Positions 10,430 to 40,488 of a stretch of DNA of 41,207 nt are shown here, one piece after another (positions within the stretch are counted from its first letter, which is position 1; the number at the start of each line of letters is the position of its first letter). This DNA comes from Calothrix sp. PCC 7103 (GTDB lineage Bacteria > Cyanobacteriota > Cyanobacteriia > Cyanobacteriales > Nostocaceae): contig NZ_KB217479.1 in NCBI RefSeq assembly GCF_000331305.1, positions 3,046-44,252 of the forward strand, in the 5' to 3' direction. The notes under the pieces were generated by a model. It worked only from the letters and a program-made list of their open reading frames with translations. It ran no database searches and was not told where the DNA came from. Both the position numbers and the translations under genes were made by a program.

Positions 10430-10433
10430 CTTT

Positions 10434-24279: not shown

Positions 24280-24517
24280 AAAAACGAAAATTCTAAAAGC
24301 CCTTACTTAGAATTGTATAGACAATTGGCGCCTTTCTAATTTATTAATCCAAGCATGTGCTTGTTTTGCATCATGTTTACCTTCTTCGATGCCATTAACA
24401 CAGCACGAAAAATTGTATCGTTTTTAACAATGTAAGCATTATCATCGTAGAACAGTCGAGCTTCTCTTCAAACCCAATTTTTAACTTACTAACAAGTAAA
24501 TAACAAACGACTTTTTT

Positions 24518-24544
24518 CCGTAATTGCGTAATAATACGGTGAAG
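24518..24544 (+). promoter_or_regulatory. promoter-like block shared by the two CHAT genes (copy 2)
   Basis: CCGTAATTGCGTAATAATAC then GGTGAAG, 27 bases before the ATG at 24572. It is the counterpart of 18713-18739. Also note the dyad CCGTA...TACGG inside this copy. Confidence 0.5.
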
Positions 24545-24571
24545 GTACTATTATAATACTGTAAGTGAACT

Positions 24572-27500
24572 ATGCCTCTCACCTTTACCTTTGCCCTCAG
24601 CCAAAACCAAACCTTTGAACTGCGCTGCGACTATGGTACTCGTCGCTTAGATACGGAAGCATTAGCAGCGTTAATTAATCTGTGTGAGGAAAAATACTAT
24701 TCCCAGGATTACGATAAACCAGCGCAGTTGAAAAAGATTGGACAGGAATTGTATCAATGGTTGGATGGGAAAGAGGGATGGTTACGCAAAGCTTTAGAAG
24801 AAGACAGTGAAAGTCGAATTTACCTCGATTTAATTCAAACCAGTGAGGCACAGGCTTTAAACTCCCAGACCCAGCGAGTCGCATTAGGGTTGGCACATTT
24901 GCCTTGGGAATTATTATATGATGGCGCCAGTTTTTTACTAATTGAATCAAATATTTTGCCTGTGCGTTCTGTGCAGCAGCGTCAAAATAATGTTCTTGGC
25001 ACACAAAATCGACCCCTGCGACTGTTGTTTATGGCGACTTCCCCGGAACATCCAGGTATTCCACCTCTGGCTTTTGAGCAGGAAGAGGTAAATATTTTAG
25101 AAGCTACAAAAAATCAACCTTTGGCTTTAGTTGTGGAAGAAAGCGGTTCGGTAGAAGAATTAAAAAATCTCGTGCAATCTTACCCGGAAGACTATTTTGA
25201 TGTTTTTCATCTCACCGGACATGGAGTAATTTACACGGAAAAAGCTTTTGAGAGGTTACTACCCAAGGGTAAGAAAATCAAAGATAATACCCCCTGTTTT
25301 ATCACCGAGGATGATTTTGGGAATGTAGTATTTACAACTGCCGAAGATTTAGGTCGGGCCTTTCAAAATCGGTTTCCACGGGTAATTTTTCTTTCTGGCT
25401 GTCATACAGGACAATTAGCAAGTCAAGGAACTGTTCCATCAATGGCACAGGCTTTAGTGAAAGCGGGTGCTAGTGTAGTATTAGGTTGGGCACGTCCGGT
25501 CTACGATAAAACGGGTATTGTTGCTGCACAAGCTTTGTATCAAGCTCTGGCGACAGGTGCGACAATCGAGGAGGCTATAATTTTAGCACATCAAGAAATG
25601 CTTGAGCAAAAATGTCCCGATGGGCATTTACTCAGAATTTATAGGGATACACGTCAAATTCAGGGGCTAGTAACTCCACTGAGGACAAAGGGGCGAGAGA
25701 AGTTAAAATTTTCACCGCCTGAACAGGAATTTTTGGATGAAAATAATATTGTTAAAGTTGCTAGTCGCGCAGAATTTGTTGGACGCAGAAGGTCTCTACA
25801 AAGATGTTTAAAATCTTTGGCAGAAGCTAGCGACAATATCGGTGTATTTATTGCTGGGATGGGTGGTTTAGGTAAAAGTTCTTTGGCTGCACGGTTATGT
25901 ACGCGCGTGCAGTCGCAACGAGATAATTTTGAGAGGGTGGTGTTAGTTGGTGTTATCGATGAGGTGGGTTTATTAAATAAGCTTTCGAGCAAATATCAGA
26001 GGTTTGCCGATGTGCCTCGGTTGTTAAATGAGCCAAGTATTTCTCTGCAAGGACGGTTACAAAACTTTTTTGAGGCTGTGGAGACTCAGCACGGTAAGCC
26101 TTTGCTGCTGGTATTAGATGATTTTGAGCAGAATATTCCCAAAGCGAATCTTGAAGATGGAAGTTTGCGAATGACTACGCAAGCTTACGGGGTTTTAGGC
26201 GCTATTTGCGCGGCTTTGTCAGAAAACCAAGCGGAGAGCCGATTGATTGTCACTTGTCGCTATCTCAAAGAAAATACTTTACCACCCCATCGTCTACATT
26301 TGGAAAATTTAGCGGCGATGGGACAAAGCGATATTAATAAAATTTATCGCGATATGGACGGGAACATTAGCGAAATAGTACGGAAAAATAGGATAGTTAA
26401 GATTGCCGATGGAAACCCACGCTTGTTGAAATGGTTATTGGATGTCGTGAAACAGCCAGGAATAGCTGAGGATGAGTTGTTGACGAAGTTAGAAGGAACA
26501 CAGCAGGAATTTCGGGAAAGTATTTTGGCAGACACCCTGTTAAGTGGGTTGGAGGATGAGGAAAAAAAGTTTTTGGCTAGGTTGAGTGTGTTTAGGTTGC
26601 CTGTAACAATAGAAATTCTCTCTACTGGCAGCAGAGAAACTTTAAATTCTCCTTCTTCCGTGTTAGCAAATGGGGTTGGGGGATTAAGTTTTTTGCCGAA
26701 ATTGGTTGCTTTGAGTTTGGTAGAATCTAGCACGGTTTACGGGGCACAGCAGTTAGAATATCGCATGACAACGATTTTAGAATCGTTGCTGCAAACCGTA
26801 TTAACTCCAGAGGAATGGCAAAGCGTCAGGAAAAAAGCAACACAGAGCATTTATAAAACTTGGTGGGAGGAGTCAGGAGATACCTACGATGAAGGTCAAG
26901 CACGAGAAATCGTTAGGTTAGCAGTGCTAGCGGAAGAGAAAGAAATAGCCATCACCCTCGGAAAGACTATAGCAAACAACTGGGTTAATAGTAGTCGCTA
27001 TGTAGAAGCACTGGAAATATGCCAGGAAGTTCTTCAGTTAGGCGAAGATTACCTAATTTTGGGAATCATTGCTAGAGCCGAACATACTTTGGGTTCAGTT
27101 GGGGATGCAATGAGGCATTATGAGAGAGCCTTAGAACTTTGTCCAGAAGATGATTTAACTATAAAAGCTTTAATTCTCCATAACATGGCTTCTTTAAAAG
27201 GACAACAGGGAGATATCATTGAAGCAACTACACATTATAACGACTCTTTATTAATCTACGAATCCATCAATGATTTGCAAGGGAAAGCTGCTACACTTCA
27301 GGAAATCGCTGGATTAAAAGCACAACAGGGGGACATCGAAGGTGCTATTTCACTTTACAATCAATCTTTGCAAATCACAGAATCTATAAATGATGAGCGA
27401 GGAAAAGCTAGCACGCTCTATCAAATAGCCGAATTGAAAGCGCAACAAGGAGAAATAGAAGATGCGCTTGCGCTTTACAGCCAATGCTTGCAAATTGCGG

Positions 27501-28660
27501 AATCTGTCAACGATGTCATAACAACAGCTTCGACTTTACACATGCTAGCAATATTAAAAGTTCAACAGGGAGATATAGAAGGTGCAATTGCGCTTTACAA
27601 GCAAACTTTTAAAATAAATGAATCTATAAATAATGTAAAAGGACAAGCTAAAATTATTAATAATATAGCAATATTAAAAGTGCAACAAGGAGACATAGAA
27701 GCAGCGCTTACACTTTACAACCAATCTTTGGGAATAACTGAATCCATTAATGATGTCCAAACAAAAGCTGCAACACTTCACAATATAGCAAATTTAAAAT
27801 TCCAGCAAGGAAACATAGAAGCAGCGCTTGTGTTTTACACTCAATCTTTGAAAATACATGAATCTATTAATGATGTAGGGAATAAAGCTGCGACTCTTCA
27901 TGAAATAGGACGGATAAAAGCCAAACAAGGAAATTTAGAAGAAGCATTCTTATTTTACAACCAATCCTTGGAAATAAAAGAATCCATCAACAATGTTCGA
28001 GGTAAAGCTGCGACTCTTAATCAAATGGCAGGATTGAAAGCTCAACAAGGAAACATAAAAGAAGCATTCGCACTTTACCAACAATGCTTAGAGTTAACTG
28101 AGTCTATTGGCTACATCGAAGGGAAAGCAGCAACTCTCTACAATCTCGCTGATTTAGCTAGACAAGAAGGAGACACAGTTAGAGAATTAGAACTATATTT
28201 ACAAGCTGCCCGTATTCTTAGTGAAGTTCAAAATTATGTGTACTTGTGCCAAACTTTAAAAAAATTAGGTATCGCCGATAAAAACAGAGGAATTATCTAC
28301 TTAGCCCAAGCTGTATGGCTGTGTCTGCGAGTACAAATACCCTTGACAGATACCGTAGACATCCTTGCTTATATGTATAATTTAGTGCCAAAAGGTAACG
28401 AGATGGAAGCCTTGCTTGGTGCCACTGCAAAGTATTTGTGTGAAGTGCGTGGTAACGAATATCCACAATTAGAAGAACTACAACAGCGTTGTTTAAAAAT
28501 TTTAGCAGGTGCAGCAAATGCACAAGGAATTGAGACGCAAGAAACACTTGCCACTTGGATTGTACAGCGGCAATTGAATAACCCTGATTATTTTATTCCG
28601 CAATTGATGAAGCAATTAGAGGAAATAGTGGCAGATCAGTGGTTATTTGAACGATTTTAG
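24572..28660 (+). CDS. CHAT-NACHT-TPR protein (intact paralogue)
   Basis: 1362 residues. CHAT domain 1-375 with AHLPWELLYDG (108-118), H217 in FHLTGHG and C277 in FLSGCHTGQ. NACHT/STAND module with EFVGRRRSLQR (401-411), Walker A GMGGLGKSS (429-437), Walker B LLLVLDDFEQN (511-521) and the sensor-like LIVTCRYL. A winged/helical arm (about 640-860) is followed by about ten TPRs of 40 residues. Eight of these share LKxQQGxIExAxxLYNQSLxIxESIND, and a conserved cap domain precedes the end (DNRG/NRGIIYLAQAVWLCLR to DQWLFERF). It is a paralogue of 18768-24279 in tandem, with the same promoter-like block, so both were meant to be expressed alike. Expected role: cytosolic sensor-switch whose CHAT protease is released on TPR/NACHT activation. 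The target is unknown and no obvious substrate is adjacent. Confidence 0.9.
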   Translation: MPLTFTFALSQNQTFELRCDYGTRRLDTEALAALINLCEEKYYSQDYDKPAQLKKIGQELYQWLDGKEGWLRKALEEDSESRIYLDLIQTSEAQALNSQTQRVALGLAHLPWELLYDGASFLLIESNILPVRSVQQRQNNVLGTQNRPLRLLFMATSPEHPGIPPLAFEQEEVNILEATKNQPLALVVEESGSVEELKNLVQSYPEDYFDVFHLTGHGVIYTEKAFERLLPKGKKIKDNTPCFITEDDFGNVVFTTAEDLGRAFQNRFPRVIFLSGCHTGQLASQGTVPSMAQALVKAGASVVLGWARPVYDKTGIVAAQALYQALATGATIEEAIILAHQEMLEQKCPDGHLLRIYRDTRQIQGLVTPLRTKGREKLKFSPPEQEFLDENNIVKVASRAEFVGRRRSLQRCLKSLAEASDNIGVFIAGMGGLGKSSLAARLCTRVQSQRDNFERVVLVGVIDEVGLLNKLSSKYQRFADVPRLLNEPSISLQGRLQNFFEAVETQHGKPLLLVLDDFEQNIPKANLEDGSLRMTTQAYGVLGAICAALSENQAESRLIVTCRYLKENTLPPHRLHLENLAAMGQSDINKIYRDMDGNISEIVRKNRIVKIADGNPRLLKWLLDVVKQPGIAEDELLTKLEGTQQEFRESILADTLLSGLEDEEKKFLARLSVFRLPVTIEILSTGSRETLNSPSSVLANGVGGLSFLPKLVALSLVESSTVYGAQQLEYRMTTILESLLQTVLTPEEWQSVRKKATQSIYKTWWEESGDTYDEGQAREIVRLAVLAEEKEIAITLGKTIANNWVNSSRYVEALEICQEVLQLGEDYLILGIIARAEHTLGSVGDAMRHYERALELCPEDDLTIKALILHNMASLKGQQGDIIEATTHYNDSLLIYESINDLQGKAATLQEIAGLKAQQGDIEGAISLYNQSLQITESINDERGKASTLYQIAELKAQQGEIEDALALYSQCLQIAESVNDVITTASTLHMLAILKVQQGDIEGAIALYKQTFKINESINNVKGQAKIINNIAILKVQQGDIEAALTLYNQSLGITESINDVQTKAATLHNIANLKFQQGNIEAALVFYTQSLKIHESINDVGNKAATLHEIGRIKAKQGNLEEAFLFYNQSLEIKESINNVRGKAATLNQMAGLKAQQGNIKEAFALYQQCLELTESIGYIEGKAATLYNLADLARQEGDTVRELELYLQAARILSEVQNYVYLCQTLKKLGIADKNRGIIYLAQAVWLCLRVQIPLTDTVDILAYMYNLVPKGNEMEALLGATAKYLCEVRGNEYPQLEELQQRCLKILAGAANAQGIETQETLATWIVQRQLNNPDYFIPQLMKQLEEIVADQWLFERF

Positions 28661-28866: not shown

Positions 28867-29707
28867 GTTCATCCCAACTAAGTATCCAGGTAGTTTCGTA
28901 TATGTAGACAACGTTCAAACTAGTCAGATATAAGGAGATATCAATAATAACTGAAGTAATGAGTAACCATAAGCTTAATGCTCTCCCATTCATAACTAAA
29001 GATTTATAGAGGCACCATCAACATAATCTTAATTCATTAATACATTCAAATGTACCAGTAGATTCTCTATGCGAGCTTACTTTTTGGAGTCATCTCATAA
29101 ATGCAACTTTATTTAGTCGTTTAAAGGTATCATCAACACGCTCCTAAATATCGTCGGGTAGGTTGAGCAATGGTAGACGGTTGAGTCGTGAACGGGCCAA
29201 GTTTAATATTGCCCAATAAGTTTATTTGTTACAAAAAATTGAGCCTATTAGTGAAGTTAATACGGAAGCAGAATAAGGCAGAAAGATGGGGGCATCTCAT
29301 CTTTTTATAAGCGCCCCTAACAATTCCCAGCCAATTCTCCTGAAACTTCTTCAAACTGTGTAACGACTTAATTTTACTCAGGTGCCTATAAAAAAAACAG
29401 TGTTGTAAAAATTACGAATACTGCTCCTTTTGAATAGAATTACGGCTTCAAGCCTTTTATACCTAAAATAAATTTTTATTTTTTGCGAACGCAATATATA
29501 AACGGGGTTGCAATACCTAAAAGAAATGTATAACCTGACTATTGTTAAGTTGAACTCATTCTGAAGTATTTTAAAGTTGCACTTCAGTTGAGTGAAACCC
29601 GAACGAAAGCCACAAAGTTTGTAAATTAAAAACTAATTTACATTTCATTTTGTGAACCTTTAGTTTCTTCTTTTTTCGAGTAATAGTCTTATTTAGTTGG
29701 ATTTGAG
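28867..29707. other. intergenic region before the large operon
   Basis: About 840 bases without a convincing gene. A weak hairpin AAAGATG/CATCTTT lies at 29282-29304. Two imperfect direct repeats (GGCACCATCAACATAATC near 29012 and GGTATCATCAACACGCTC near 29126) are present. There is no GGCGCC in this stretch. The last 180 bases should hold the promoter of the operon starting at 29708. Confidence 0.45.
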
Positions 29708-30106
29708 ATGGTATGTGACGATGTTATGTACACCCAGAAAACTCTTGCTCAGAGGTATGAGATATCGATTGCGGCTTTGCAGCGCTGGTATCCTTTTGCA
29801 GGAATAGTCAAACCAAAAAAGCGTGGTGGATATTTTGATGCTGCCACTGTTGAGATAGCTGATACATTCTACGTTGCTATCAAAATTCGGCGCCTAACTT
29901 GTGAGGAGTATTTGCAGCAGGTAATTCCTGCGGGTGGTTTGGATGTTTTTATGCAAAAGGTCAACGGTATTGGTCTTTATGACTTTTTGACTAAACATAT
30001 TTCTGATGAAGAACGAGAGAACTATATTGTCCAGTCAGTAATTAAGAGGTTGGAGCGCAATGAAGCATATAAATCAGCTAGCACAACAGTTGCAAACGTC
30101 GCCTGA
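29708..30106 (+). CDS. HTH-type (MerR-like) protein heading the operon
   Basis: 132 residues. An N-terminal helix-turn-helix of MerR type is suggested by YTQKTLAQRYEISIAALQRW followed by GYFDAATVEIADTFYVAIKI. The C-terminal half is helical (LDVFMQKVNGIGLYDFLTKH). It may be the operon's regulator or a DNA-binding component of the machine. ATG 29708 follows a GAG-type ribosome site weakly; ATG 29726 (MYTQKTLAQ) is an alternative start. The gene overlaps the next by 47 bases. Confidence 0.6.
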   Translation: MVCDDVMYTQKTLAQRYEISIAALQRWYPFAGIVKPKKRGGYFDAATVEIADTFYVAIKIRRLTCEEYLQQVIPAGGLDVFMQKVNGIGLYDFLTKHISDEERENYIVQSVIKRLERNEAYKSASTTVANVA

Positions 30107-30677
30107 TAAGTTACGGGAAATCTGTAATTTACTAAGTTTGCCTTTGAAACCAAACGATACAGTTGATGAAACAGTTGAGCAGCAGCTAGTTAAATTAAAG
30201 GAGGTTGCTTCCAAAGAAGGTATTTCTTTAGATGAAGCCGCGCGCCATTTAGTTGAGATGCGCGACCGTAAAGTGGAAGCAGAAACAGGCGCCCACAAAT
30301 TCGATAAGCGTGATTACATTAAGCAGCGTTTTGGAACAGACCCAGAACTTGCGGCGCCTGATAGTTTTGTGGGGATGCTTTACCTGGATGCAGATAGAGG
30401 AATTCAGCTAGGGGAATTGCGCCATAAAGTGGTGCTAGAAACTTCCACCCTTGCTTTAGAGGAATTTGTTTTTAATGGCAACACCTCACTGGCTAATACA
30501 GATAACACTGATTACAACCAAGCCCAAGAACGAATTCAGTCTCGAATTGATAACGATTTTTTTGCCAAAGTAAATTGGGGGGAAGGGAGTCACCCACTGC
30601 TAGCCAGTTCATCGACACCTTCTCACAAACAGTTGAAGTCGTCGCAGCCGAAAACCGCGCAATCTCAGAAGAAATAA
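30060..30677 (+). CDS. hypothetical 205-aa protein
   Basis: ATG start inside the previous gene. The N-terminal 70 residues are helical with a HTH-like look (TSPDKLREICNLLSLPLKPN, EGISLDEAARHLVEMRDR). A middle domain follows (RFGTDPELAAPDSFVGMLYL, IQLGELRHKVVLETSTLALE). From about residue 172 the sequence becomes low-complexity polar, and it overlaps the next gene by 103 bases across a G6 run at 30577-30582. No family recognised. Confidence 0.6.
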   Translation: MKHINQLAQQLQTSPDKLREICNLLSLPLKPNDTVDETVEQQLVKLKEVASKEGISLDEAARHLVEMRDRKVEAETGAHKFDKRDYIKQRFGTDPELAAPDSFVGMLYLDADRGIQLGELRHKVVLETSTLALEEFVFNGNTSLANTDNTDYNQAQERIQSRIDNDFFAKVNWGEGSHPLLASSSTPSHKQLKSSQPKTAQSQKK

Positions 30678-30949
30678 TTGAACAAATGCTTCCAGTTTGT
30701 TATCAACTGCGCGATGAGAGTTTGCTTTCTTCAAGAAAAACATCGACTTTAGCGGTTGGTATAAATTGTCTTTCAGTTATTGCTGGTACAGTAATTGGAA
30801 CTTGGATAGCCATTCCTCCAACTCAGGAAAGACAAGAAATTTCGTCAATTGAACCAATTTTGATTGGCGCCAGTATAGGTGAATTAATTGGGTTAATTTT
30901 GGCACTTTTAATAATTTGGACACGGGGTACAAATGAGCGCAGCGTTTGA
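30575..30949 (+). CDS. small membrane protein with acidic N-terminus
   Basis: The frame is open from TTG 30575 and protein-like from the start (QFIDTFSQTVEVVAAENRAI, EEIIEQMLPVCYQLRDES). Membrane segments follow at about 60-80 and 93-112 (ILIGASIGELIGLILALLII). The best ATG is 30686 (MLPVCYQ), which would leave a plausible coding stretch unused. The TTG start, or a frameshift from the preceding gene at the GGGGGG run, are therefore both possible. The next gene starts 17 bases before its stop. Confidence 0.55.
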   Translation: MGGRESPTASQFIDTFSQTVEVVAAENRAISEEIIEQMLPVCYQLRDESLLSSRKTSTLAVGINCLSVIAGTVIGTWIAIPPTQERQEISSIEPILIGASIGELIGLILALLIIWTRGTNERSV

Positions 30950-31151
30950 TTTTTTGATTAATACAGCAGGTGGGTTGTTAATGAATCTGGGAGTTTCTGG
31001 GATGGTGGGTCATTTAATAGGAGTCGGCGCCACTCTTGCTCTGCACCCATTATTACTGCTAACTGGGATAGTTGTAGGTGGCGCCTCTCTTGCAATTGCA
31101 CGCGAACTAAACAAACGTCCCGAACTGAGATTGGTTGTTGATAATAGTTGA
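30933..31151 (+). CDS. 72-aa small membrane protein
   Basis: It starts MSAAFDFLINTAGGLLMNLG with one or two hydrophobic helices (about 10-30 and 34-53, LHPLLLLTGIVVGGASLAIA) and a short polar tail. It is rich in Gly, like holin or pilin-type small membrane proteins, but not assignable. Its ATG lies inside the preceding gene; the next ATG is nine bases after its stop. Confidence 0.65.
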   Translation: MSAAFDFLINTAGGLLMNLGVSGMVGHLIGVGATLALHPLLLLTGIVVGGASLAIARELNKRPELRLVVDNS

Positions 31152-31160
31152 GGTGTGGCT

Positions 31161-31991
31161 ATGTTTACACCAACTCCCGTTCGAGATAGTAAGCCAAGCC
31201 GTAAAAAGAAAAAGGTAAATATTGGTTTATGGACTGCTTGTTCTACTGTTGGCGCCCTATGTGTAATTGGTTCGGTTGCTTTAATGATAGGTTGGCGCCA
31301 GCAGTTACCAAACAACCAGCCATCCGAAGTACAACAAGCAAAAGCACAAGTTAAGCAAATTCGGGAAGTGTATCTTGAAAAGCTGTCTCGAACTGATTAC
31401 AACATCGACAATCTTTCTAATTATTCCTCATCTGAAGGCGTACCTACACTTACAGGATGGCGCCAGTTAGCAGCAGCGTTGTGGTCGCAGCAACTCAAAA
31501 GTGAAATATCCAAAATGCAAAGTAACGAAAATTCGGGATTTTACCGTCTGCACTATATGCCAGCTTTGGAGATAGTTAAATTTAACGCCTTGGACATTTT
31601 GTTAGAAGCAGCATCTGGTAATAATACGTTTTACTGGGGCTACCGCAAAACCGATGGTACTAAGGTTGAGGAAAAAATACCAACAGGCGCCGCTGCTGTT
31701 TTTCTGTTAGGTAAGTTAGAAGCAATTGACTACGCACAAAACTTAGAGTCACAGCCATCGGTTGATTTAAACCAAATGCTGATTCAAATTCGTAACGCAA
31801 GTGAACCATACTCTCTCGCTCAAGCTCAGTTATTAAGAGCGCGCGGATATTCTGACCCAGTAAAGCAGATGACACAACTGGGAGATATTCGAGCCAAGAT
31901 AAAACAACTTGAGGAAGAACGGCGCCAATATTTACAAGGTATGAAAGAAACAGTTAAGCCTGTTTACCCGAATAAAAAACCTGAGTCTTAG
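31161..31991 (+). CDS. single-pass membrane protein, 276 aa
   Basis: I chose ATG 31161 over GTG 31155 because GAGG at 31150-31153 is then seven bases away. A basic cytoplasmic N-terminus (KPSRKKKKVNIG) is followed by a membrane helix at about 24-44 (ACSTVGALCVIGSVALMIGW). A long extracytoplasmic helical domain follows (EVQQAKAQVKQIREVYLEKL, LEEERRQYLQGMKETVKPVY). This bitopic shape resembles envelope-spanning parts of secretion or transfer machines such as VirB10- or TraB-accessory proteins in topology only; there is no sequence match that I know. Confidence 0.65.
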   Translation: MFTPTPVRDSKPSRKKKKVNIGLWTACSTVGALCVIGSVALMIGWRQQLPNNQPSEVQQAKAQVKQIREVYLEKLSRTDYNIDNLSNYSSSEGVPTLTGWRQLAAALWSQQLKSEISKMQSNENSGFYRLHYMPALEIVKFNALDILLEAASGNNTFYWGYRKTDGTKVEEKIPTGAAAVFLLGKLEAIDYAQNLESQPSVDLNQMLIQIRNASEPYSLAQAQLLRARGYSDPVKQMTQLGDIRAKIKQLEEERRQYLQGMKETVKPVYPNKKPES

Positions 31992-32003
31992 GGGGTGATA
32001 TTT

Positions 32004-32456
32004 ATGTACGCTAAATTTGCTGCTGCGATAATTTGTATAATGCTTTCTACATTTAATGTTGTAGCAGCAGTGCGTCGTACACCCGTGCGTACAGTTTTAG
32101 AGGAATCATCACGGACAACTGTAGTTCAAATGCAATCACCTGGAGTCGGTGTGCATTGGAGTAGTGCAGTAATATTTGCAGCATTTTTTGCTTGTTTTTT
32201 AGGTTGGGGTTTGTCAGATTACAACAATTCTCTAGATTCAGGTGAACATAAATCTTCCAACGAGCAACCCGACACTAATAAACCTCCTGCAACAAACCTT
32301 CCTAAAAATGTAGTACAGTTTTCACCGCGCGTAATTTCTCCAGTAAAGCCAAATCAACCAGGAGTGCTTTCTCCTGAAGAGTTTTTTACTCAACTTGAAG
32401 ATTCTGAAGACTATTGGGCTGATGATACCCAGCCTAAAGATAACCATTCTCATTAA
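32004..32456 (+). CDS. membrane protein with Pro-rich tail
   Basis: ATG 32004 is preceded by AGGGGGTGAT, a strong ribosome site. The N-terminal hydrophobic segment (about 2-22) could be a signal peptide; a second membrane helix is at about 54-70 (AVIFAAFFACFLGWGLSDY). The remainder is polar and Pro-rich (PRVISPVKPNQPGVLSPEEF) with an acidic C-terminus. No family recognised; operon position five of eleven. Confidence 0.6.
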   Translation: MYAKFAAAIICIMLSTFNVVAAVRRTPVRTVLEESSRTTVVQMQSPGVGVHWSSAVIFAAFFACFLGWGLSDYNNSLDSGEHKSSNEQPDTNKPPATNLPKNVVQFSPRVISPVKPNQPGVLSPEEFFTQLEDSEDYWADDTQPKDNHSH

Positions 32457-32475
32457 GTTTTGAGGACATATTAAC

Positions 32476-32964
32476 ATGACTAAGAACCGTCGCAATTTTG
32501 ATGTTGATTATTCTGAAGGGGGAGCAATTATGCCGACAAACAGGTTGCAGAATATGCTCAATCAAGTACAGCAACAGGGTGGTATAACATCACAATCTGG
32601 TTATCCTAATGTAATTGATACTCAGGTCGTTCAACCAATTGAGGTAAAACATATTACCTCACCTGTATCGAACAAAGCAGTAGTTCCACGAATCGAGATA
32701 CCTTACGTTGAAATCTGGAAAGCTCATCGTTTACATCCTCAGAATCCCTGGAGATTTATTTGGTATCCAGCTTACTTTTTAGGAGACTGTATAAAATCTC
32801 CAGTTGGAGTAGGCGCCGTAGGTTCGTGGTTGTTGTTTTTGTTAGTCAATTTTTTACTGAATGGTTCTTATCAAGGGCCTGGTTATGTTAACGGTAAGAA
32901 AATTGAAGTAGTACCTGAGAAAGTTCCTACTATTTCTATGCCAGTGGTTCGGCAGTTGGAATAA
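32476..32964 (+). CDS. membrane protein, 162 aa
   Basis: A GAGGA ribosome site stands about ten bases before the ATG. A disordered, Gln-rich cytoplasmic N-terminus (about 1-75) leads to HPQNPWRFIWYPAYFLGDCI and a membrane helix at about 113-131 (AVGSWLLFLLVNFLLNGSY). A short C-terminal segment rich in Pro and Val follows. Unknown family. Stop and next ATG are two bases apart. Confidence 0.6.
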   Translation: MTKNRRNFDVDYSEGGAIMPTNRLQNMLNQVQQQGGITSQSGYPNVIDTQVVQPIEVKHITSPVSNKAVVPRIEIPYVEIWKAHRLHPQNPWRFIWYPAYFLGDCIKSPVGVGAVGSWLLFLLVNFLLNGSYQGPGYVNGKKIEVVPEKVPTISMPVVRQLE

Positions 32965-32966
32965 CC

Positions 32967-33239
32967 ATGTCGATGAAACTTACTTTCTGGTTGGTGTTGG
33001 TACTGTGGATATTAAAGATTTTGCAACCAGGTTATTTACAGTTTTACGGTTGGCGCCATGTTGTAACTCTAGCTCAAAAATTGCAATCTTCTTCTGTGGC
33101 TGTTCCTACTTCTAGTCCCACTACACGAACTGACACATCCAGTATTCAACAATGTCGCAAGCCAAATAACGATTTTGAGAAGGTATTAAGTTCAGCTTCG
33201 ATTGGCTGCTGGGCTAACAATGACTCTAGAAACCAATAG
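32967..33239 (+). CDS. small secreted or anchored protein with two cysteines
   Basis: 90 residues. A hydrophobic N-terminus (LTFWLVLVLWILKILQPGYL) acts as signal anchor. A Ser/Thr-rich linker (VAVPTSSPTTRTDTSSIQQC) and a short end with a second Cys (SIGCWANNDS) follow. The two cysteines in the outer part could form a disulfide. The next gene starts two bases after the stop. Confidence 0.55.
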   Translation: MSMKLTFWLVLVLWILKILQPGYLQFYGWRHVVTLAQKLQSSSVAVPTSSPTTRTDTSSIQQCRKPNNDFEKVLSSASIGCWANNDSRNQ

Positions 33240-33241
33240 CT

Positions 33242-34069
33242 ATGCGAATCACATTCGAGACTGATAATGATTACCAAACAGACGTTGCAAGTACGGATGT
33301 TGTTGATGAGCAGGGAGGAAGTTGGAAGTATGTGCTTGCAACTGCTATTTTAGCTGGGTCAATTGTAGTTGCTCCTATTTCCAATTGGCTAGATTCTTTA
33401 GCTGTGGTTCAGCAAGTTCGTTCCGTGGTCTATCCTCAGTTTGAGCAGCCTGTTAATAACAGTTTGGCTAGCCGCGTATACCAAACGATGAGGCGTAAAG
33501 GCTACCAAGTATTTACCAACGAAGGAGAGGTTAATATTGTTTATCTGCGTGGCGCCGATAAAGATGGTAAACCCAACGGTAACAAAATTAACGAATGGTC
33601 AGACCGTCGTTTGGTTTTAATGTTTCGCGATGGTCAGCCAACTATTATTGGTAACTGGGCTGCTACAGTAAAACCTGGTTTGCCTGCTATTCTTAATCCT
33701 CTGGGCAAATCAGGCGCCGCATTTATTGAGTTAGGACAATATAAAGCTTGGAGAGTAGGTATTCACAACGGTATATTTGGACGTTCTGAGGAAGGCTTGG
33801 TTCAAGTGGCGCCAGTTAACTTTCGCCGCGATGTTAACCGTAACGGCAAAGTTGATAGTACACCTGTGCAGTTAGGAATGATTGGGCTTAACCAACATTC
33901 GGGAAGCGACCAAGCTAAAGTTGACCGTGCTTCATATGCTTGTCTTGCTGGTCAATCAAAAAGTGGTCATTTGCATAATTTTATGCCGTTGGTGAAAGCT
34001 GACCCTCGTTACCGTCGAAATCGAGCTTTTGTTTTTACCACAACTATTTTGGATGCGGATGATTTGTAG
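33242..34069 (+). CDS. membrane-anchored protein with L,D-transpeptidase-like motif
   Basis: The 275-residue protein has a membrane helix at about 29-47 (YVLATAILAGSIVVAPISNW). The extracytoplasmic domain contains GYQVFTNEGEVNIVYLRGAD, WRVGIHNGIFGRSEEGLVQV and IGLNQHSG followed by VDRASYACLAG. The His...Ser-x-x-Cys arrangement recalls the HG...S(H/R)GC catalytic motif of YkuD L,D-transpeptidases, but a Tyr-Ala replaces His-Gly, so enzymatic activity is uncertain. It lies next to an M23/GH104 murein hydrolase whose N-terminus looks alike (WKYAIATGILVA), so the two probably sit side by side in the envelope. Confidence 0.6.
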   Translation: MRITFETDNDYQTDVASTDVVDEQGGSWKYVLATAILAGSIVVAPISNWLDSLAVVQQVRSVVYPQFEQPVNNSLASRVYQTMRRKGYQVFTNEGEVNIVYLRGADKDGKPNGNKINEWSDRRLVLMFRDGQPTIIGNWAATVKPGLPAILNPLGKSGAAFIELGQYKAWRVGIHNGIFGRSEEGLVQVAPVNFRRDVNRNGKVDSTPVQLGMIGLNQHSGSDQAKVDRASYACLAGQSKSGHLHNFMPLVKADPRYRRNRAFVFTTTILDADDL

Positions 34070-34098
34070 ATAGCTCAGGTAATTCAAGGAATTAGTAC

Positions 34099-35163
34099 GT
34101 GAGACTTGTTATTGATTTTCAGGGTAGCAAGCATCAGAGTAAAAATGTACTTAATAAAGCTTCTAACCCTGATTGGAAATATGCTATTGCAACAGGAATT
34201 TTAGTTGCAGCGATGATAGTTCCCCAATTTTCTGAATGGGTTGAATCTCAACAGTTCGTCAAATCTCTCCAAACAAGAGTTGGTAGCTTACCTACTACTG
34301 GCGCCACAATTAGTCGAATCACTTTTCCTACTGTTGCAAATGCTCCTGTCACGAGTGGGTTTGGTTGGCGCCAGCATCCAATTACAGGAGAGCGGAAGTT
34401 CCATACTGGTATTGATTTTGCTGCTTCTCTTGGGGCGCCGATTTACGCGACTGATGCTGGAATAGTTGAATTTGCAGGGGAGAAGGGGGGTTACGGAAAC
34501 ACAGTTGTTGTTAAGCACACCTCGGTATCTACTCTTTATGGTCATGCTAGTAAACTTTACGTTGCTACTGGTCAGAAAGTAACGCGCGGACAACTGATTG
34601 CAGCAGTGGGTAGTACAGGAATGTCCACAGGTCCACATCTACATTTTGAAGTTCGGGTTAACGATAAGCCTCAAAACCCTCGTCCTTATTTACAGCAGCA
34701 GATAGCAACTTCTTACTCCCAAAGAATGCGCGCTTTTTTAGCAACAATTCGTTGGGCTGAAACTGGTACTTCGGGTGATGAGAGTTATCGTAAATTAGTA
34801 TTTAATGGCACTTTCAACGATTTCTCAACTCATCCTAGGATTAAACAATGTGCGCCAATTAATGGAAAGCGCGTTTGTTCTACTGCTGCTGGCGCCTACC
34901 AGATGCTAGACAAATCTTGGTATGACCTTCAACCAAAACTAAAATTGACTAATTTTTCTCCTGCTTCTCAAGACAAAATGGCAGTTGAATATATTCGGCG
35001 CAATCAAGCTATAGCTGATGTTGAAACAGGTAATTTAGATGCTGCTCTTCAAAAATTAGGAAGAGTTTGGGCGAGTATGCCTTACAACAACTACAATCAA
35101 AATGCAAAAACTTTAGAACAATGGAGAAGTTATTATCAGCAGCAATTAGCTTATAGAGGTTGA
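34099..35163 (+). CDS. M23 endopeptidase fused to GH104 (lambda R-type) lysozyme
   Basis: The start is GTG 34099 and a membrane anchor lies at about 26-43. The LytM/M23 domain (about 75-195) carries GFGWRQHPITG, the zinc ligands in FHTGIDFA (H102, D106), YGH (H149) and GPHLHFEVR (H182), so the site is complete. The C-terminal domain (about 205-350) matches the lambda R/GH104 lytic transglycosylase fold: RAFLATIRWAETG with catalytic Glu E221, FNDFSTHPR, STAAGAYQML and FSPASQDKMAVEYI. The fusion would cut both peptide cross-links and glycan strands. As an anchored enzyme in an operon with a DNA translocase it most likely opens a local gap in peptidoglycan for a transfer channel. Confidence 0.88.
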   Translation: MRLVIDFQGSKHQSKNVLNKASNPDWKYAIATGILVAAMIVPQFSEWVESQQFVKSLQTRVGSLPTTGATISRITFPTVANAPVTSGFGWRQHPITGERKFHTGIDFAASLGAPIYATDAGIVEFAGEKGGYGNTVVVKHTSVSTLYGHASKLYVATGQKVTRGQLIAAVGSTGMSTGPHLHFEVRVNDKPQNPRPYLQQQIATSYSQRMRAFLATIRWAETGTSGDESYRKLVFNGTFNDFSTHPRIKQCAPINGKRVCSTAAGAYQMLDKSWYDLQPKLKLTNFSPASQDKMAVEYIRRNQAIADVETGNLDAALQKLGRVWASMPYNNYNQNAKTLEQWRSYYQQQLAYRG

Positions 35164-35167
35164 TAAT

Positions 35168-37177
35168 ATGCAGACAAGCTACTCAAATGATGAGATATAT
35201 CAAGCAATTGTGTGTCTCAAACAGGCAGGTTTATCTAATCAAGATATTTTGACTGAAGCTGAAAATTTATTTGATTTTAGCCAGCAGCTATATGTTTTGA
35301 ATATTCTGCAAGAGTCTGACTTTGGTAGTAAAATTATTCGACCTGTTAAAAGCTATGACCATGACTATTTATTTGAAATGCTTTACCAAGCGGTTGTTAG
35401 CGGTACTTCTGTTCATCAGATACTTGAAGTTTGTGAGTCAGAATTAAGCTTAGAAGATTTGGCTTTTTCTAAACTAGCCTTGGAATACATTTTAACTAAT
35501 AGATACATTAGCAAGCACGAGCGTAATGCTTTTATACTTGACCTGTATAAGCTTTATCAAGAAGTTAAATCTCACAAAGAGTTAATCAAGGTAGCCGATT
35601 CAACTAAAAATATTTATTTAAAACAGTTGGTATATAAAACGGTAGAGTTAGTTGCTACTCGAACAGGTGAAACTCTATCGTTATCACAAAAAAATCTAAA
35701 TAGCAATTCTTTAACAACAGGAGATAATAAAGACATCGCGCTTATTCAAGAAAACTTTGAAAACAAAGTTGGTGATGTATTAGTTGGCGCCTTAAATGAT
35801 TTTGGTATTGCCTGTAATTATATTGATACCAAGACTGGCCCGACCTTTAAACGAGTAAAAATTAAGTTAGGAAAGGGAGTTAGTTTTAAAAAAGTCCAGG
35901 GTTTAGGTAATGACTTGGTGCAGCAGCTTGGTGAAGAACTAGGTTTAGAAAACCCGCCTATGATATCTGTTGTGCCAGGGGCAGTTGTATTTGATATTCC
36001 CAGACTTGACAGGCAGGTAGCTTGTTTTGCTGACTATGTAGACTTAACAAGTGAGATTAATATTAGCCGGATAGTTATTCCTGGTGGGGTGGATGTTAAT
36101 GGTAAGTATATTGAAATCTCTTTGTGTGACTCTAATGTTTACCACAGTTTAGGCGGAGGTATGACCGGTGGCGGTAAGAGTCAGTACGAAAAGGCAATGG
36201 TTTTATATCTAGCATTACGCTATCCCCCAAGTTTGGTCAAACTAGCCCTCAGCGATGTAAAGCTAGTTTCGCTTACTTGCTTTAATGGACTTCCTCACTT
36301 AGTGGCGCCTGTTGCCGAAGATGCTCTTAGCACGCTACAAATTTTCAATTACCTCGTGGCAGAACAAGAACTTCGCTACCAAGAGTTTAAACGGGTGGGA
36401 GTTGAAAACATCAACGAATACAACCAGTTATTTTCTAATTGTCCTATACCTCGAATCGTTTCTGTCACTGACGAATGTTTTGACTTGCTCTCAGATACTA
36501 CTTACAAAGACCCTATGGAAATGGCATTAATGAAACTGCTGGCAAAAGCGGGTGCAGCGGGAATTAATATTTTCCTTTTTACCCAGCGTCCCGATAAGGA
36601 TGTAATCAAACCGCTGATTCGGTCAAACTGTTCAGGTAAGATTGCTTTTATGGTGTCCCGCCCTGAAGATAGCGGCATTATTTTAGGTAATCCTGATGAT
36701 GACCGTGCAGCTAGCTTGTTAGGAGGTGGAGACATGCTTTACAAATCTCCCAAAGGGGTTATGCGTCTTCAGGGGTTGTATTTAGGCGCCAAAGCTGACT
36801 TCCAGGCATTACTTGATACTTGTATGACTGTCCACACTAATATGCCTTGTTGGAATTCTGGGTTAGATTTTTCTAGTTTTGGTGTTTCAATAAACAGTAA
36901 TAGCGGCGCCAGTAATGGGCAAATACGTAGTCGGTTAAATAAAGCTATTACTCAATCGTTGATTAGTCATACTGAAGCAGATTCTTTGAATGTTTATCTT
37001 GATGATTTTACGAAATCTCAAATTATTTCTCTACATAGTAGAGGTTACGAGTTGCATCAAATTATTCAAGAAATATTTAAGTTATCGCGCGCAGATGGGA
37101 GAAAATATAAACGAGTGCGTGATATTGTATACAACTTTATCGTAAGTGTAGAGGCAGAGGATAACGATGATAATTAA
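35168..37177 (+). CDS. FtsK/SpoIIIE-like DNA translocase without membrane domain
   Basis: 669 residues. Residues 1-185 are helical and soluble. An alpha-domain follows (FENKVGDVLVGALNDFGIAC, then VKIKLGKGVSFKKVQGLGND, VVPGAVVFDIP). The RecA-like motor has Walker A GMTGGGKSQ (331-339), Walker B RIVSVTDEC (429-437) and the family block GINIFLFTQRPDKDVI, then SRPEDSGIILGNPDDDRAAS and LLGGGDMLYKSPKGVMRLQG. The C-terminal 60 residues (TKSQIISLHSRGYELHQIIQ, RKYKRVRDIVYNF) resemble a winged-helix DNA-recognition tail. It lacks the four N-terminal membrane helices of FtsK; small membrane proteins encoded upstream could supply the channel. Streptomyces TraB moves double-stranded plasmid DNA with this kind of motor (established). 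Confidence 0.88.
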   Translation: MQTSYSNDEIYQAIVCLKQAGLSNQDILTEAENLFDFSQQLYVLNILQESDFGSKIIRPVKSYDHDYLFEMLYQAVVSGTSVHQILEVCESELSLEDLAFSKLALEYILTNRYISKHERNAFILDLYKLYQEVKSHKELIKVADSTKNIYLKQLVYKTVELVATRTGETLSLSQKNLNSNSLTTGDNKDIALIQENFENKVGDVLVGALNDFGIACNYIDTKTGPTFKRVKIKLGKGVSFKKVQGLGNDLVQQLGEELGLENPPMISVVPGAVVFDIPRLDRQVACFADYVDLTSEINISRIVIPGGVDVNGKYIEISLCDSNVYHSLGGGMTGGGKSQYEKAMVLYLALRYPPSLVKLALSDVKLVSLTCFNGLPHLVAPVAEDALSTLQIFNYLVAEQELRYQEFKRVGVENINEYNQLFSNCPIPRIVSVTDECFDLLSDTTYKDPMEMALMKLLAKAGAAGINIFLFTQRPDKDVIKPLIRSNCSGKIAFMVSRPEDSGIILGNPDDDRAASLLGGGDMLYKSPKGVMRLQGLYLGAKADFQALLDTCMTVHTNMPCWNSGLDFSSFGVSINSNSGASNGQIRSRLNKAITQSLISHTEADSLNVYLDDFTKSQIISLHSRGYELHQIIQEIFKLSRADGRKYKRVRDIVYNFIVSVEAEDNDDN

Positions 37178-37196
37178 TCTACTATCCTTGTTTGAA

Positions 37197-37260
37197 GTGA
37201 TACTCCAGTTGGTGGATTATTGTTTTAGGCAATAAAGTAAGTTTCGATTCTTACTATCAC
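37197..37260 (+). tRNA. tRNA-like cloverleaf, anticodon loop UUUUAGG (degenerate)
   Basis: All four stems can be drawn: GTGATA/TATCAC (acceptor, 6 bp), TCC-AGTTGGT-GGA (D arm with the invariant A and GG), TATTG-TTTTAGG-CAATA (anticodon arm, perfect) and GTAAG-TTTCGATT-CTTAC (T arm with TTCGA). A normal reading gives anticodon UUA, which would pair with UAA. The acceptor is short, the T loop has eight bases and the variable loop only two. It is therefore a degenerate tRNA or tRNA-like element rather than a certain gene. Confidence 0.3.
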
Positions 37261-37442
37261 AATTGGGGATAAAACAGTTGACCGATACTGAAAATTAACT
37301 AGTACAGGATAATTTTACAGTTCTGGAAGATTTAACAGAGTAAGGTGTAGGCTTACTGTTTCTCCTCAAATCCCAATTAAAAAGATGCCGGGGCAAGAGT
37401 AATTGTTGTTCTTGTAAACCTGTATTTAAAGAGGGATAAACC

Positions 37443-38720
37443 ATGTTGAGAAAATTTTGTGGTCAAGTGTTTGAGACTGTTAATGTGGCACTGGGATTTA
37501 TTTCTCTAGCTACAATTGCTATCGGCGCCGTTTCAACTTTTACTGGTTTAGGACTTCGCTTAATTACAAAAGGCGGAGTTGAAATAATTCCAGAAGAACG
37601 CGCAGAAAGCCTAACTACTTTTGGTATGGGTCTATGCTTATACGGTGGAGTTGGATTTGCTGGCGCCGTTGTAGCTGCTGCAAGTGCTGCAAACCTCTTA
37701 GATGCTGTTGATAAGGATGGGGAGGAATCTCGAACTTCTGATAATAATCGTGTGGTATTTAAGCCAAGTTATAGCGTGCAACAAGAGCTAACTGATTCTT
37801 TATATTTGTATCAGGTGATGGGTCTTAATGGTTGTCGTGCGCTTGACGGTAAGTTGATTGTCGGGAGAATAAAAGATGAACTAAACAGAAAAGTTGTTAT
37901 CTACGATGAGTTGGGTTCGTTCGATATTGACTTGCTAATGGAAATATTTAACGCTGATTGTGACCAAGATAAGCTTATAGGTACAGCTTTTTCTTCAACC
38001 CTTTCAAGACCTCGCGATGCAGCTCGTGATTTTATTGATTACCATCGTCCTCAATTACAGTTTAAAGCTGATTTTGGGACTGATATTGAAAAATGTGCAG
38101 GATGTCGTAATTTTCATGGCGCCGATAAAGTCGTCTGCGGCTACCATCCCTATGGCTGGGATTCTAGTTGTATCTGTCCTGATTGGCAGCCTGATAAAAA
38201 CAATCAGCGAGCTTATTTTCCATACGAGCGGGAAGAAATACTACAGCGTTTGAATCAAGACATTGAGCCAAATAGAGCATATTTGAGTAAGAACGATGAT
38301 GGTACTTTAACTTTGTGGGACAATCATACCTTACGTAGATTCCATTTTTCTTGGGCAGGTATTCTTCTTCTTGACTCAAACGATTCAGACAAACTTTTAG
38401 AGTTAGGCGAACATGCCCGCTTACTTTCTTACATCCAATATTTTGGGGTACGCACGGTAGTTGAGTTTGATTACTCTGCTAAAATTGATGACTTTGCAAA
38501 ACAGTTAAAGGATATTGCTACTATTGAGATTGGAGACGAGGGTATTAGCATTCGGACTAATTACTGTCCGCGTTTAAATACTAAGATTACTCGTACTTAC
38601 CGTTTTCGTTTCGATGGTGTTCCGCTGTATCCTTATGAATCAATTGTTCCTGTAGAGTTAAAATATAATTACAATTTAGTTACCTTTATTGGATGGTTGA
38701 AAGCTAAGGTTGGAAAATGA
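37443..38720 (+). CDS. membrane protein with Cys-rich metal-binding-like domain
   Basis: 425 residues, with AGAGGGA about nine bases before the ATG. Two membrane helices (about 15-37 and 60-85, VGFAGAVVAAASAANLLDAV) are followed by a cytosolic or periplasmic domain. This has a Cys cluster at about 218-246 (CAGCRNFHGADKVVCGYHPY ... SSCICPDW), probably a zinc ribbon. The C-terminal third is beta-rich (IDDFAKQLKDIATIEIGDEG). The CxxC-FHG-C-HP-C-DW pattern occurs in cyanobacterial unknown proteins as I recall. It follows the translocase operon on the same strand and shares its high GGCGCC content, so I infer it belongs to the same module. Confidence 0.65.
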   Translation: MLRKFCGQVFETVNVALGFISLATIAIGAVSTFTGLGLRLITKGGVEIIPEERAESLTTFGMGLCLYGGVGFAGAVVAAASAANLLDAVDKDGEESRTSDNNRVVFKPSYSVQQELTDSLYLYQVMGLNGCRALDGKLIVGRIKDELNRKVVIYDELGSFDIDLLMEIFNADCDQDKLIGTAFSSTLSRPRDAARDFIDYHRPQLQFKADFGTDIEKCAGCRNFHGADKVVCGYHPYGWDSSCICPDWQPDKNNQRAYFPYEREEILQRLNQDIEPNRAYLSKNDDGTLTLWDNHTLRRFHFSWAGILLLDSNDSDKLLELGEHARLLSYIQYFGVRTVVEFDYSAKIDDFAKQLKDIATIEIGDEGISIRTNYCPRLNTKITRTYRFRFDGVPLYPYESIVPVELKYNYNLVTFIGWLKAKVGK

Positions 38721-38908
38721 ATCCTTTTTTGACTTGCACGTATCTACCAAAAATACCAAGAGCGGAGTATCAGGAGTAAAGAGTTTTATTAACCTACATA
38801 TTCCTTTGAAACAACCTCAAATAAGAATGCAATTTGGTTTATCTACTTCATAGTAGTGCCAATATTCCTTCTGACTGACCAGTGGTTTCTAAATAGTTCA
38901 TTCAGCAC

Positions 38909-38960
38909 GGGGGAATTTCCCCCACTACTGGGTGAATTATTTACAGTCACCCATCAGTAA
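38909..38960 (+). promoter_or_regulatory. double hairpin in the leader of 38976
   Basis: GGGGGA-ATT-TCCCCC (38909-38923) is followed by TGGGTGA (38929-38935) pairing with TCACCCA (38948-38954). Both lie just before the AGAGGA ribosome site of 38976. They could end transcription from 37443-38720 or control the downstream gene. Confidence 0.45.
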
Positions 38961-38975
38961 TTAAGAGGAACTACC

Positions 38976-39491
38976 ATGTTTAACTTGTTTTATTGTTCTG
39001 CATTTAAAACTTCTGCTTCTGTTCAAGCTATCAACAATATCTTATTTCCGGTTGTTCTGTTTGTAGTTATTTTTTGGCTAATGTGTGAGGTCTTTTTAGC
39101 CGATGTTGCTGTTGAAGACAATTTACTTGTGGTGAATGAAGAATTTACCGATAGTATTATCCACGGTCAAATTGGTAAAGATAGTACTTCCCAAAAAGCT
39201 GGAAATGACCATGTACTCGAACACTTACTTGCCGATATGGCAACAACAGCTGATGAGGATAAAAATAGTACAGAGCTACCGGACATTGATGGTAGGCGCC
39301 AAAACTTGAAAGCGTTGGGCATCCGTAAACTTCGAGATTTTTGCCGAAATCGCGAAATCAAAGGATACGCGGCTGCATATCGCCAACGTGGACTGGATGG
39401 TTTAGTGGAGTTTTTGTTCGCAAAACAAATTTATGCTCATCATGTTGAGCAACAGTTTAAGCATGTAGATACTTTGGCGCGCGGACATTGA
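38976..39491 (+). CDS. membrane-anchored protein with SAP/Rho-N-like domain
   Basis: 171 residues. One membrane helix lies at about 20-40 (NILFPVVLFVVIFWLMCEVF), followed by an acidic linker. A C-terminal domain (LKALGIRKLRDFCRNREIKG, then YRQRGLDGLVEFLFAKQI) looks like a SAP or Rho-N DNA-binding motif (LR..C...I.GY...L..FL). If right, it would tether DNA to the membrane, which fits the neighbouring translocase. ATG start with a good AGAGGA ribosome site. Confidence 0.6.
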   Translation: MFNLFYCSAFKTSASVQAINNILFPVVLFVVIFWLMCEVFLADVAVEDNLLVVNEEFTDSIIHGQIGKDSTSQKAGNDHVLEHLLADMATTADEDKNSTELPDIDGRRQNLKALGIRKLRDFCRNREIKGYAAAYRQRGLDGLVEFLFAKQIYAHHVEQQFKHVDTLARGH

Positions 39492-39584
39492 TGAAAAGCC
39501 CTGGTGCCTTTATTGGGATTAAGCGCTAATAGCAAAGCAAATACCTATTATTAGATAAATATGAATGTTTTTTTGATGCTAAAA

Positions 39585-40333: not shown

Positions 40334-40435
40334 ATAGATATAAAGGCGAATATACCAATGCCACTCGGACTTCGCCCTTATGTTAACCAGTTAGTAGTTG
40401 GGTAGGGCAGGGATATTGCTACCCCTTTCCCCCCT

Positions 40436-40472
40436 AGAAACCGAGCGTGCAAGTTTTCCAAGCACTCGGCTT
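40436..40472 (-). ncRNA. group II intron domain V
   Basis: The minus strand reads AAGCCGAGTGCTTGGAAAAC then TTGCACGCTCGGTTTCT. The stem AGCCGAGTGC/GCACGCTCGGTTT with a GAAA tetraloop fits the catalytic domain V (AGC triad near the base; established). Domain VI follows at about 40397-40434. Confidence 0.75.
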
Positions 40473-40488
40473 GAGCAAGTCATTAAAG

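Follow-up and report, generated by a model that had tools for sequence, protein, structure and literature searches.

The closest described counterparts of the locus analysed here are the TraB/Spd systems of Streptomyces elements (pIJ101, pSVH1, pSAM2), in which an FtsK-family motor and several membrane proteins are encoded on a mobile element of a multicellular, septate host. Passages in PMC4170104, PMC12857230 and PMC3158045 describe the spread of such elements inside the mycelium, and actinobacterial FtsK-based elements are described in a passage of PMC3158045 as having neither relaxase nor T4SS genes. Further points of comparison are TcpA of the conjugative plasmid pCW3 and chromosomal FtsK/SpoIIIE. 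For Thermus, a passage on transjugation in PMC5365140 presents TdtA as an ATPase involved in intercellular DNA donation; by description, this resembles the cell-to-cell role proposed below for the motor of our locus.

The window (the whole stretch of 41,207 nucleotides from Calothrix sp. PCC 7103) carries a cassette of about ten kilobases. Its likeness to TraB/Spd is one of arrangement, with small membrane proteins encoded in an operon with the motor. In contrast to TraB/Spd, wall hydrolases are included and the motor, K, lies outside TraB by profile. Unlike the actinobacterial FtsK-based elements, those carrying the cassette have relaxase and T4SS genes alongside the FtsK motor. We consider it possible, at a probability of about 40%, that the cassette is an accessory dsDNA pump of conjugative plasmids and integrated conjugative elements in filamentous, heterocyst-forming cyanobacteria. 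No description of it was found in the titles and abstract openings of open-licence PMC papers, and the word FtsK is absent from PMC8600333, which deals with cyanobacterial conjugative plasmids.

Gene content of the window copy

The preliminary description had reported a tight run of eleven genes followed by two more, and this agrees with the open reading frames: A to K occupy 29708-37177 with spacings of -47, 8, -17, 3, 3, 19, 2, 2, 29 and 4 bp, L starts 265 bp past K, and M 255 bp past L. The features are listed below, with their frequency among 51 comparable loci where this was counted.

29448..29707, + strand: upstream region travelling with the cassette
29708..30106, + strand: A, small HTH-like protein, 132 aa (46/51 loci)
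30060..30677, + strand: B, 205 aa, without membrane segment, overlapping A by 47 bp (45/51)
30686..30949, + strand: C, 87 aa, two membrane segments (49/51)
30933..31151, + strand: D, membrane protein, 72 aa (49/51)
31155..31991, + strand: E, 278 aa, long conserved domain plus a single membrane segment at the N-terminus (50/51)
31995..32456, + strand: F, 153 aa, two membrane segments (50/51)
32476..32964, + strand: G, 162 aa, invariant GPGY after a single membrane segment (50/51)
32967..33239, + strand: H, 90 aa, membrane segment at the N-terminus (51/51)
33242..34069, + strand: I, 275 aa, candidate wall enzyme (His..Ser..Cys pattern) behind a shared anchor
34099..35163, + strand: J, shared anchor, M23 endopeptidase and lysozyme-type domain in one protein
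35168..37177, + strand: K, soluble FtsK-type motor, 669 aa
37443..38720, + strand: L, 425 aa, membrane protein (two segments) with a cysteine cluster (47/51)
38976..39491, + strand: M, 171 aa, one membrane segment (45/51)
39484..39517, + strand: conserved element GACATTGATGAAAAGCCYYGG...TTGGG, spanning the stop of M and beyond

The start codon of C was assigned by hand. In the window copy, hydropathy (19-residue stretches with a mean of at least 1.6) calls membrane segments in C to I, L and M, and none in K. Those in C to H account for the at least five small membrane proteins claimed earlier, and the proposal that the membrane part is split into separate proteins beside an FtsK-type motor fits the segments outside K. 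The cysteine-cluster membrane protein is recovered as L. For M, termed a SAP-like membrane protein, the membrane segment stands, but the SAP assignment has no supported family match. A shows sub-threshold similarity to MerR_1 and weak similarity to mad1.

E carries the database label "phage terminase large subunit", which we reject since no Pfam domain stands behind it. A PDB sequence search with E, F and G gave nothing usable, and the AF2 model of E (pLDDT 44) is too poor for interpretation. Together with the lysin-type domains and PHROG matches described below, the label would fit a cassette derived from, or related to, a phage module for packaging/lysis or another secretion module. Such an origin is highly improbable: the label lacks domain support, none of the ten cassette proteins scanned matches a capsid family, the K profile and 66 pattern matches in viral contigs yielded no relative, and both the motor and the alpha domain of FtsK are found in K.

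On the left, homology begins somewhere between 29372 and 29704, varying by relative, and its usual right edge is at 39522. The element at 39484..39517 is the final conserved stretch ahead of that edge. Its hairpin differs from copy to copy, and it was rejected as a known RNA, Rfam matches being at chance level. The alignments indicate a short conserved element closing the cassette, which we regard as new.

Motor K and the anchored wall enzymes

K matches PF01580 (68.7 bits) and FtsK_alpha PF17854 (26.7 bits) in Pfam. Walker A (GGGMTGGGKS) and Walker B (DE) are intact, with GKS and DE invariant. The motor is preceded by a helical N-terminal domain and followed by a three-helix domain. K scores 181 bits against FtsK structures and 87 bits against TcpA; membership in TraB was rejected, with 16.2 bits against the family model NF041214 (cut-off 800). 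The predicted model (mean pLDDT 60) recovers the FtsK motor fold with TM-scores of 0.16-0.36, so low that only the family was taken from the structure search. K shares with TcpA an FtsK-like motor on a conjugative plasmid, with sequence and fold matches, but differs from TcpA coupling proteins in scoring half as high against TcpA as against FtsK, in having no membrane segment, and in being accompanied by a separate VirD4. We thus assign K, on profile and structure matches, to the FtsK type; of the three motors compared, FtsK, which moves dsDNA, is the nearest to it, with TcpA and TraB further off. A soluble FtsK-like motor with a winged-helix-like end had been described. Motor and solubility are upheld, whereas the end consists of three helices (pLDDT about 80) without an FtsK_gamma match. 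Matches of K to SspH, mad8 and HerA were read as the common ATPase domain, and a role in defence was rejected; no defence partner genes were found among the ten cassette proteins scanned.

The shared motor and alpha domain raise the question of plasmid maintenance, in which K would clear or sort large low-copy DNA at the closing septum like FtsK/SpoIIIE, with the wall enzymes acting there. The FtsK-like nature of K and the large size of the cassette plasmids (214-395 kb) would suit such a function, which we nevertheless judge quite unlikely. Unlike chromosomal FtsK/SpoIIIE, K has a different N-terminal domain without membrane segments, and neither FtsK_gamma nor 4TM is matched in Pfam. Hydrolases and about eight membrane proteins seem to exceed the needs of partition, and ParA/ParB and ParM genes are already present on the complete, T4SS-bearing cassette plasmid described below.

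J had been described as an anchored M23 and GH104 hydrolase. M23 is certain (Pfam, 118 bits), and the C-terminal part matches the endolysin/lysozyme profiles PHROG 90 and 17230. The anchor falls just under the hydropathy threshold in the window (1.51) and passes it in the M23 relative from Trichormus (1.76). In most relatives, the M23 and lysozyme-type domains are encoded by separate genes. Counted by motif, so that the figures are lower bounds, M23 occurs in at least 41 and the GH104-type domain in at least 43 of the 51 loci; the motif search found neither M23 nor lysozyme motifs in some loci. I is confined to some lineages. Its description as YkuD-like is not borne out by Pfam, which gives no match; PHROG 3000 and 33083 are matched and the His..Ser..Cys pattern recurs. 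The "Icys" motif row is unreliable, as it passes over the window's own I, and the labels of I and M23 are mixed in the gene-order comparison owing to the common anchor.

An HMM for I also caught M23 proteins via this anchor, and a search with an M23-anchor profile was therefore made. Among the 14 I proteins (13 distinct) it recovers 13 (12 distinct), and it finds all seven NlpC/P60 proteins that replace M23. Three unrelated wall-enzyme domains (M23, NlpC/P60 and the YkuD-like candidate) are thus predicted behind one N-terminal anchor, which we consider new. The fact that one anchor profile finds both I and the NlpC/P60 proteins indicates that the site of wall cutting is kept more than its chemistry.

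Recurrence, hosts and linkage to conjugation genes

The same gene order is found in 51 comparable loci (50 distinct, since L012 and L096 are one plasmid, so that every count over 51 includes one repeat), with A to H each present in 45-51. Motor and hydrolases thus recur in company with one set of small membrane genes, which had been set beforehand as a check. K was matched in 55 of 217 genomes of the family; a further 67 genomes of the order align with its motor core alone (E <= 1e-40). Against Dulcicalothrix desertica, the alignment is limited to 29448-39522 of the window (90.8%), and the cassette has been swapped without its flanks in this pair. dN/dS values against locus L048 are 0.03-0.52 (12 genes, C left out), which points to purifying selection; a comparison with L050 was discarded, its K being broken. 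The repeated gene order and the dN/dS values place the cassette beyond chance, and by sequence comparison genes A to M constitute one exchangeable unit.

The hosts of 57 loci (L048-L104) belong, with one exception, to taxa which we take to be filamentous, as the preliminary description had supposed. The exception is Hydrococcus rivularis (Pleurocapsales), where K is 96.8% identical to that of a Trichormus plasmid; this copy may reflect recent transfer or contamination. Among the filamentous hosts is the laboratory cyanobacterium Trichormus variabilis ATCC 29413, whose plasmid C bears a copy of the cassette.

A VirD4 coupling protein is encoded on all 13 cassette plasmids and on the same contig for 40 of 42 cassette copies. 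The preliminary description had asked whether the cassette is always plasmid-borne; it is not, and 15 of 16 chromosomal copies have VirD4 within 300 kb (2.4 expected). One complete cassette plasmid has VirD4, a relaxase, VirB10 (so annotated in the record) and a putative VirB4, a 942-aa ATPase taken as such from its position in the T4SS cluster alone, its Pfam matches being general and below cut-off. Because these genes are present, the canonical route would not need K as coupling protein, and K is nowhere the only coupling ATPase on the 13 plasmids. The absence of relaxase and T4SS genes noted earlier thus holds for the window, but not for the class of elements. For the dsDNA route proposed earlier, a relaxase/T4SS set directly beyond the window had been named as evidence to the contrary; the elements examined do carry relaxase and other T4SS genes, for the most part at distances of tens of kb, and this comes near to that situation. 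Since VirD4 is linked to plasmid and chromosomal copies alike, we consider the cassette an extra module on conjugative elements and not a stand-alone transfer system.

This linkage, often including a relaxase, could also mean that the cassette opens the wall and aids the T4SS of its own element, with K feeding, unlinking or clearing donor plasmid DNA. T4SSs commonly employ wall hydrolases, and those of the cassette could equally serve one. We regard this explanation as rather unlikely. The T4SS cluster already has its own VirD4, and on common contigs the nearest VirD4 is 11-397 kb away (contig C7 treated as circular). The cassette was exchanged without flanks in the pair compared, and the partner VirD4s are diverse (identities to a single query of about 75-100%, 50% and 37%). 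Full-length K is missing from 99 of 112 VirD4 plasmids, many of them from filamentous Nostoc; filaments thus do not require it, which also counts against the pump proposed here. In favour of that pump, the VirD4 plasmids of Chroococcidiopsis, Gloeothece and Acaryochloris, presumably unicellular, are outside the 13 with full-length K.

A possible route along the filament

In the preferred reading as an accessory dsDNA pump, relaxase/T4SS conjugation would bring the element into one cell of the filament. The membrane-anchored hydrolases would then breach the septal wall, C to H, with L and M, would build or line a passage, and K, a soluble hexamer docked on membrane proteins, would drive the duplex element into the adjacent cell. 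We infer DNA as the substrate, the crossing of the septum, C to H as the passage and the docking of the K hexamer on them. By analogy, our best guess is a mode of action like that of TraB/Spd, outside that family.

A dsDNA route similar to that of Streptomyces had been suggested earlier for filamentous cyanobacteria. Motor type, filamentous hosts and gene co-occurrence are in line with it; the presence of conjugation genes on the elements and the outcome of a search for clt-like direct repeats are not. On a complete cassette plasmid from Tolypothrix (214,777 bp), no exact 8-mer occurs five times within 600 bp; the strongest strand bias is 31 to 6, and no strand-biased or clustered octamer stood out.

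It is conceivable, if somewhat unlikely, that the cassette represents two-stage conjugation in multicellular bacteria: ssDNA entry by the T4SS would be followed by duplex spread through an FtsK-type pump with swappable anchored wall cutters, independent in origin from the Streptomyces systems, and the element after M would serve as loading or orientation site.

To our knowledge, the colonisation of a many-celled filament by a plasmid has been little studied, and nothing on it was found in the titles and abstract openings of the open-licence PMC literature. Here, genes for an FtsK-type motor and for conjugation occur together on one element. In a laboratory strain, a cassette uniting this motor with wall hydrolases and membrane proteins on conjugating elements would make the colonisation of filaments directly testable.

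Layout of the cassette and its surroundings

The window corresponds to positions 3046-44252 of contig C8, which is 45,255 bp long, lies nearly completely inside the window and has ends that do not overlap each other; the source genome has 11.58 Mb. The tight packing of eleven genes, followed by two more, as noted in the preliminary description, is borne out (genes A to K, then L and M, together termed the cassette).

Features of the window
3626-4927: helicase resembling RecD; a TraI helicase-associated match stays below threshold
11097-13967 (-): protein whose repeats are of the Sortilin and RTX (calcium-binding) types
18710-22022: large TPR protein gene, also with CHAT and NACHT-like domains
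22185-23432: ISL3-type transposase gene, between the two TPR stretches
24515-27844: large TPR protein gene (73% DNA identity to 18710-22022)
29708-37177: genes A to K, gaps of -47 to +29 bp
265 bp after K: gene L
a further 255 bp after L: gene M
40397-40474 (-): catalytic domain of a group II intron (RF00029 in Rfam, 47 bits), 0.9 kb past the cassette

Gene K codes for an FtsK-type motor with FtsK_alpha; the domain search gave no FtsK gamma match, and a membrane segment is absent. Protein J combines M23 and a lysozyme-type domain, a fusion found in 4 of 51 loci, while most relatives have two separate genes. For E, F, and G, no known domain was found by domain/profile and sequence searches. Databases label E and its relatives as "phage terminase large subunit family" or "GpA-like" but list no Pfam domain for E; this name looks like a propagated misannotation.

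Recurrence and exchange of the cassette

When one genome was scanned for each species, 95 stretches encoding a relative were obtained, the best 80 of which were kept and represent 78 loci, including 57 close-relative loci (L048-L104, a few being fragments). Gene content was counted in the 51 loci (50 distinct) which have enough sequence on either side, with presence of K required. On this basis, A to H are present in 45-51 of 51 loci, L in 47, and M in 45, which supports the co-occurrence of the motor with the same small membrane genes that the preliminary description had named as a check. The dN/dS values versus L048 are 0.03-0.52 for the 12 genes tested (K: 0.12).

Dulcicalothrix desertica has the closest cassette, with 92% identity in K. 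Comparison of the window contig with a 98-kb part of C19, a D. desertica contig, gives window 29448-39522 (90.8%) as the sole aligned block of at least 250 bp. The right homology edge is at 39522 versus four loci (L048, L013, L014, L102), at 39501 versus L049, and at 39606 versus L050, and the left edges are spread over 29372-29704. L014 and L102 also have common flanks, which would be expected for orthologous host elements.

The window's own genome carries four copies, on C8, C12 (two), and C7. In the C7 copy (L014), a partial second copy of B-D-E lies upstream (437-2556), and an IS605-type OrfB gene (9928-11292) separates the NlpC/P60 and lysozyme-type genes. K is broken or split in G222:C1, G252:C1:1640201-1642146, and G250:C13:299428-301293.

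Among 195 genomes drawn from the order, K is matched beyond the motor core only in the window's own genome, and 67 others match over the motor core (both at E <= 1e-40). Profile searches retrieved 84 proteins for E among the best 8,000 candidates scored, and 56 for G; matches with an organism name are cyanobacterial, bar one MAG labelled Methylacidiphilales. We take the host genera to be filamentous, with Hydrococcus rivularis (L061) as the clear exception; its K and the one on Trichormus plasmid C share 96.8% identity.

Wall enzymes and the conserved element following M

A profile of the N-terminal anchor, built from 49 M23 proteins, matches 13 of 14 I proteins (wall-enzyme candidates; one protein counts twice among the 14) and all seven proteins with an NlpC/P60 domain (Pfam was run for two of the seven). 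E-values are 4e-19 to 2e-6 among the matches listed (12 of 13). Searching all 6,717 ORFs that the loci contain gave 69 matches at E <= 0.01, the only one outside these three classes being a fragment (L009 11738-12088). NlpC/P60 takes the position of M23 in L014, L015, L088, L091, L092, L097, and L102. That the catalytic part is exchanged and the anchor kept suggests that selection acts on enzyme placement at the machine.

The regular expression GAAAARCYYYRG...GG, for a short conserved element at 39484-39517, matches after M in 39 of the 52 loci having this gene. The exact pattern TGAAAAGCCYYGG-N(6-10)-TGGG occurs 25 times in 46 genomes (reversed control: 1), and 23 occurrences are 1.6-4.8 kb beyond K and in its orientation; the other two come from G199 and G308, which lack K. 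It is present in 19 of 26 genomes with K versus 2 of 20 without and, because it was drawn from these same copies, its rarity elsewhere is the informative part of the count. The element might terminate transcription, serve in regulation, mark an end for recombination, or be the site where the motor is loaded. An exact 12-bp direct repeat, CGGACATTGATG, is found at 39280-39291 and 39482-39493, the second copy overlapping the element.

Association with conjugation genes and possible function

The preliminary description had seen no relaxase, VirB4 or pilin gene. Absence of relaxase and T4SS genes holds for the window proteins scanned but not for the class: on the complete plasmid of Tolypothrix PCC 7712, the cassette is joined by a MobA/VirD2-type relaxase and VirD4 (both by Pfam), a gene annotated as VirB10, and a putative VirB4 ATPase. 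In a VirD4 search ranking of 112 plasmids, all 13 cassette plasmids (at least 80% of K covered by one place) are within the top 14; the 14th and the remaining 98 lack K at this coverage.

VirD4 is on the same contig as K for 40 of 42 K copies (28 of 55 K-positive family genomes), the two others being the window's own short contig and one broken copy. The cassette is not always plasmid-borne (a check named in the preliminary description), with 16 copies residing on chromosome-sized contigs. Fifteen of these are within 300 kb of VirD4 (the C7 copy counts only on a circular contig, and the lengths of some contigs were approximate), compared to 2.4 expected and a maximum of 9 in 20,000 random draws, which overstate independence because the copies share descent and a cassette plasmid supplied the VirD4 query. 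Of the 10 genomes tested, 9 encode a PF03432 relaxase (the sole relaxase family searched), which lies near several copies (C12:1352314 and C12:370906 are 7.5 kb and 55 kb from one K each); it was not found in G373, which has two K copies. VirB4-like genes match in 191 of 217 family genomes, many at ~54% identity, chromosomal and not necessarily T4SS, and K in 55 of 217 (E <= 1e-90).

With these genes so regularly at hand, the cassette could be an accessory to conjugation, which we consider a possible but rather unlikely second choice; a role in maintenance ranks third and seems somewhat less probable still. Since VirD4, a coupling protein, accompanies T4SS genes, primary conjugation, judged from gene content, may do without K. 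A filament poses a second problem, that of getting to neighbouring cells, and for both reasons we rank spread within the filament first, at a probability of about 40%. The parts fit a pump which would drive duplex DNA through a locally opened wall. Streptomyces elements reach neighbouring cells by TraB and Spd proteins, as described in sections of PMC4170104 and PMC12857230. The cassette is not a member of that system, because three defining features (TraB family model, clt repeats in one plasmid, absence of relaxase/T4SS) were tested and not found. The cassette may nevertheless work in a way similar to TraB/Spd.
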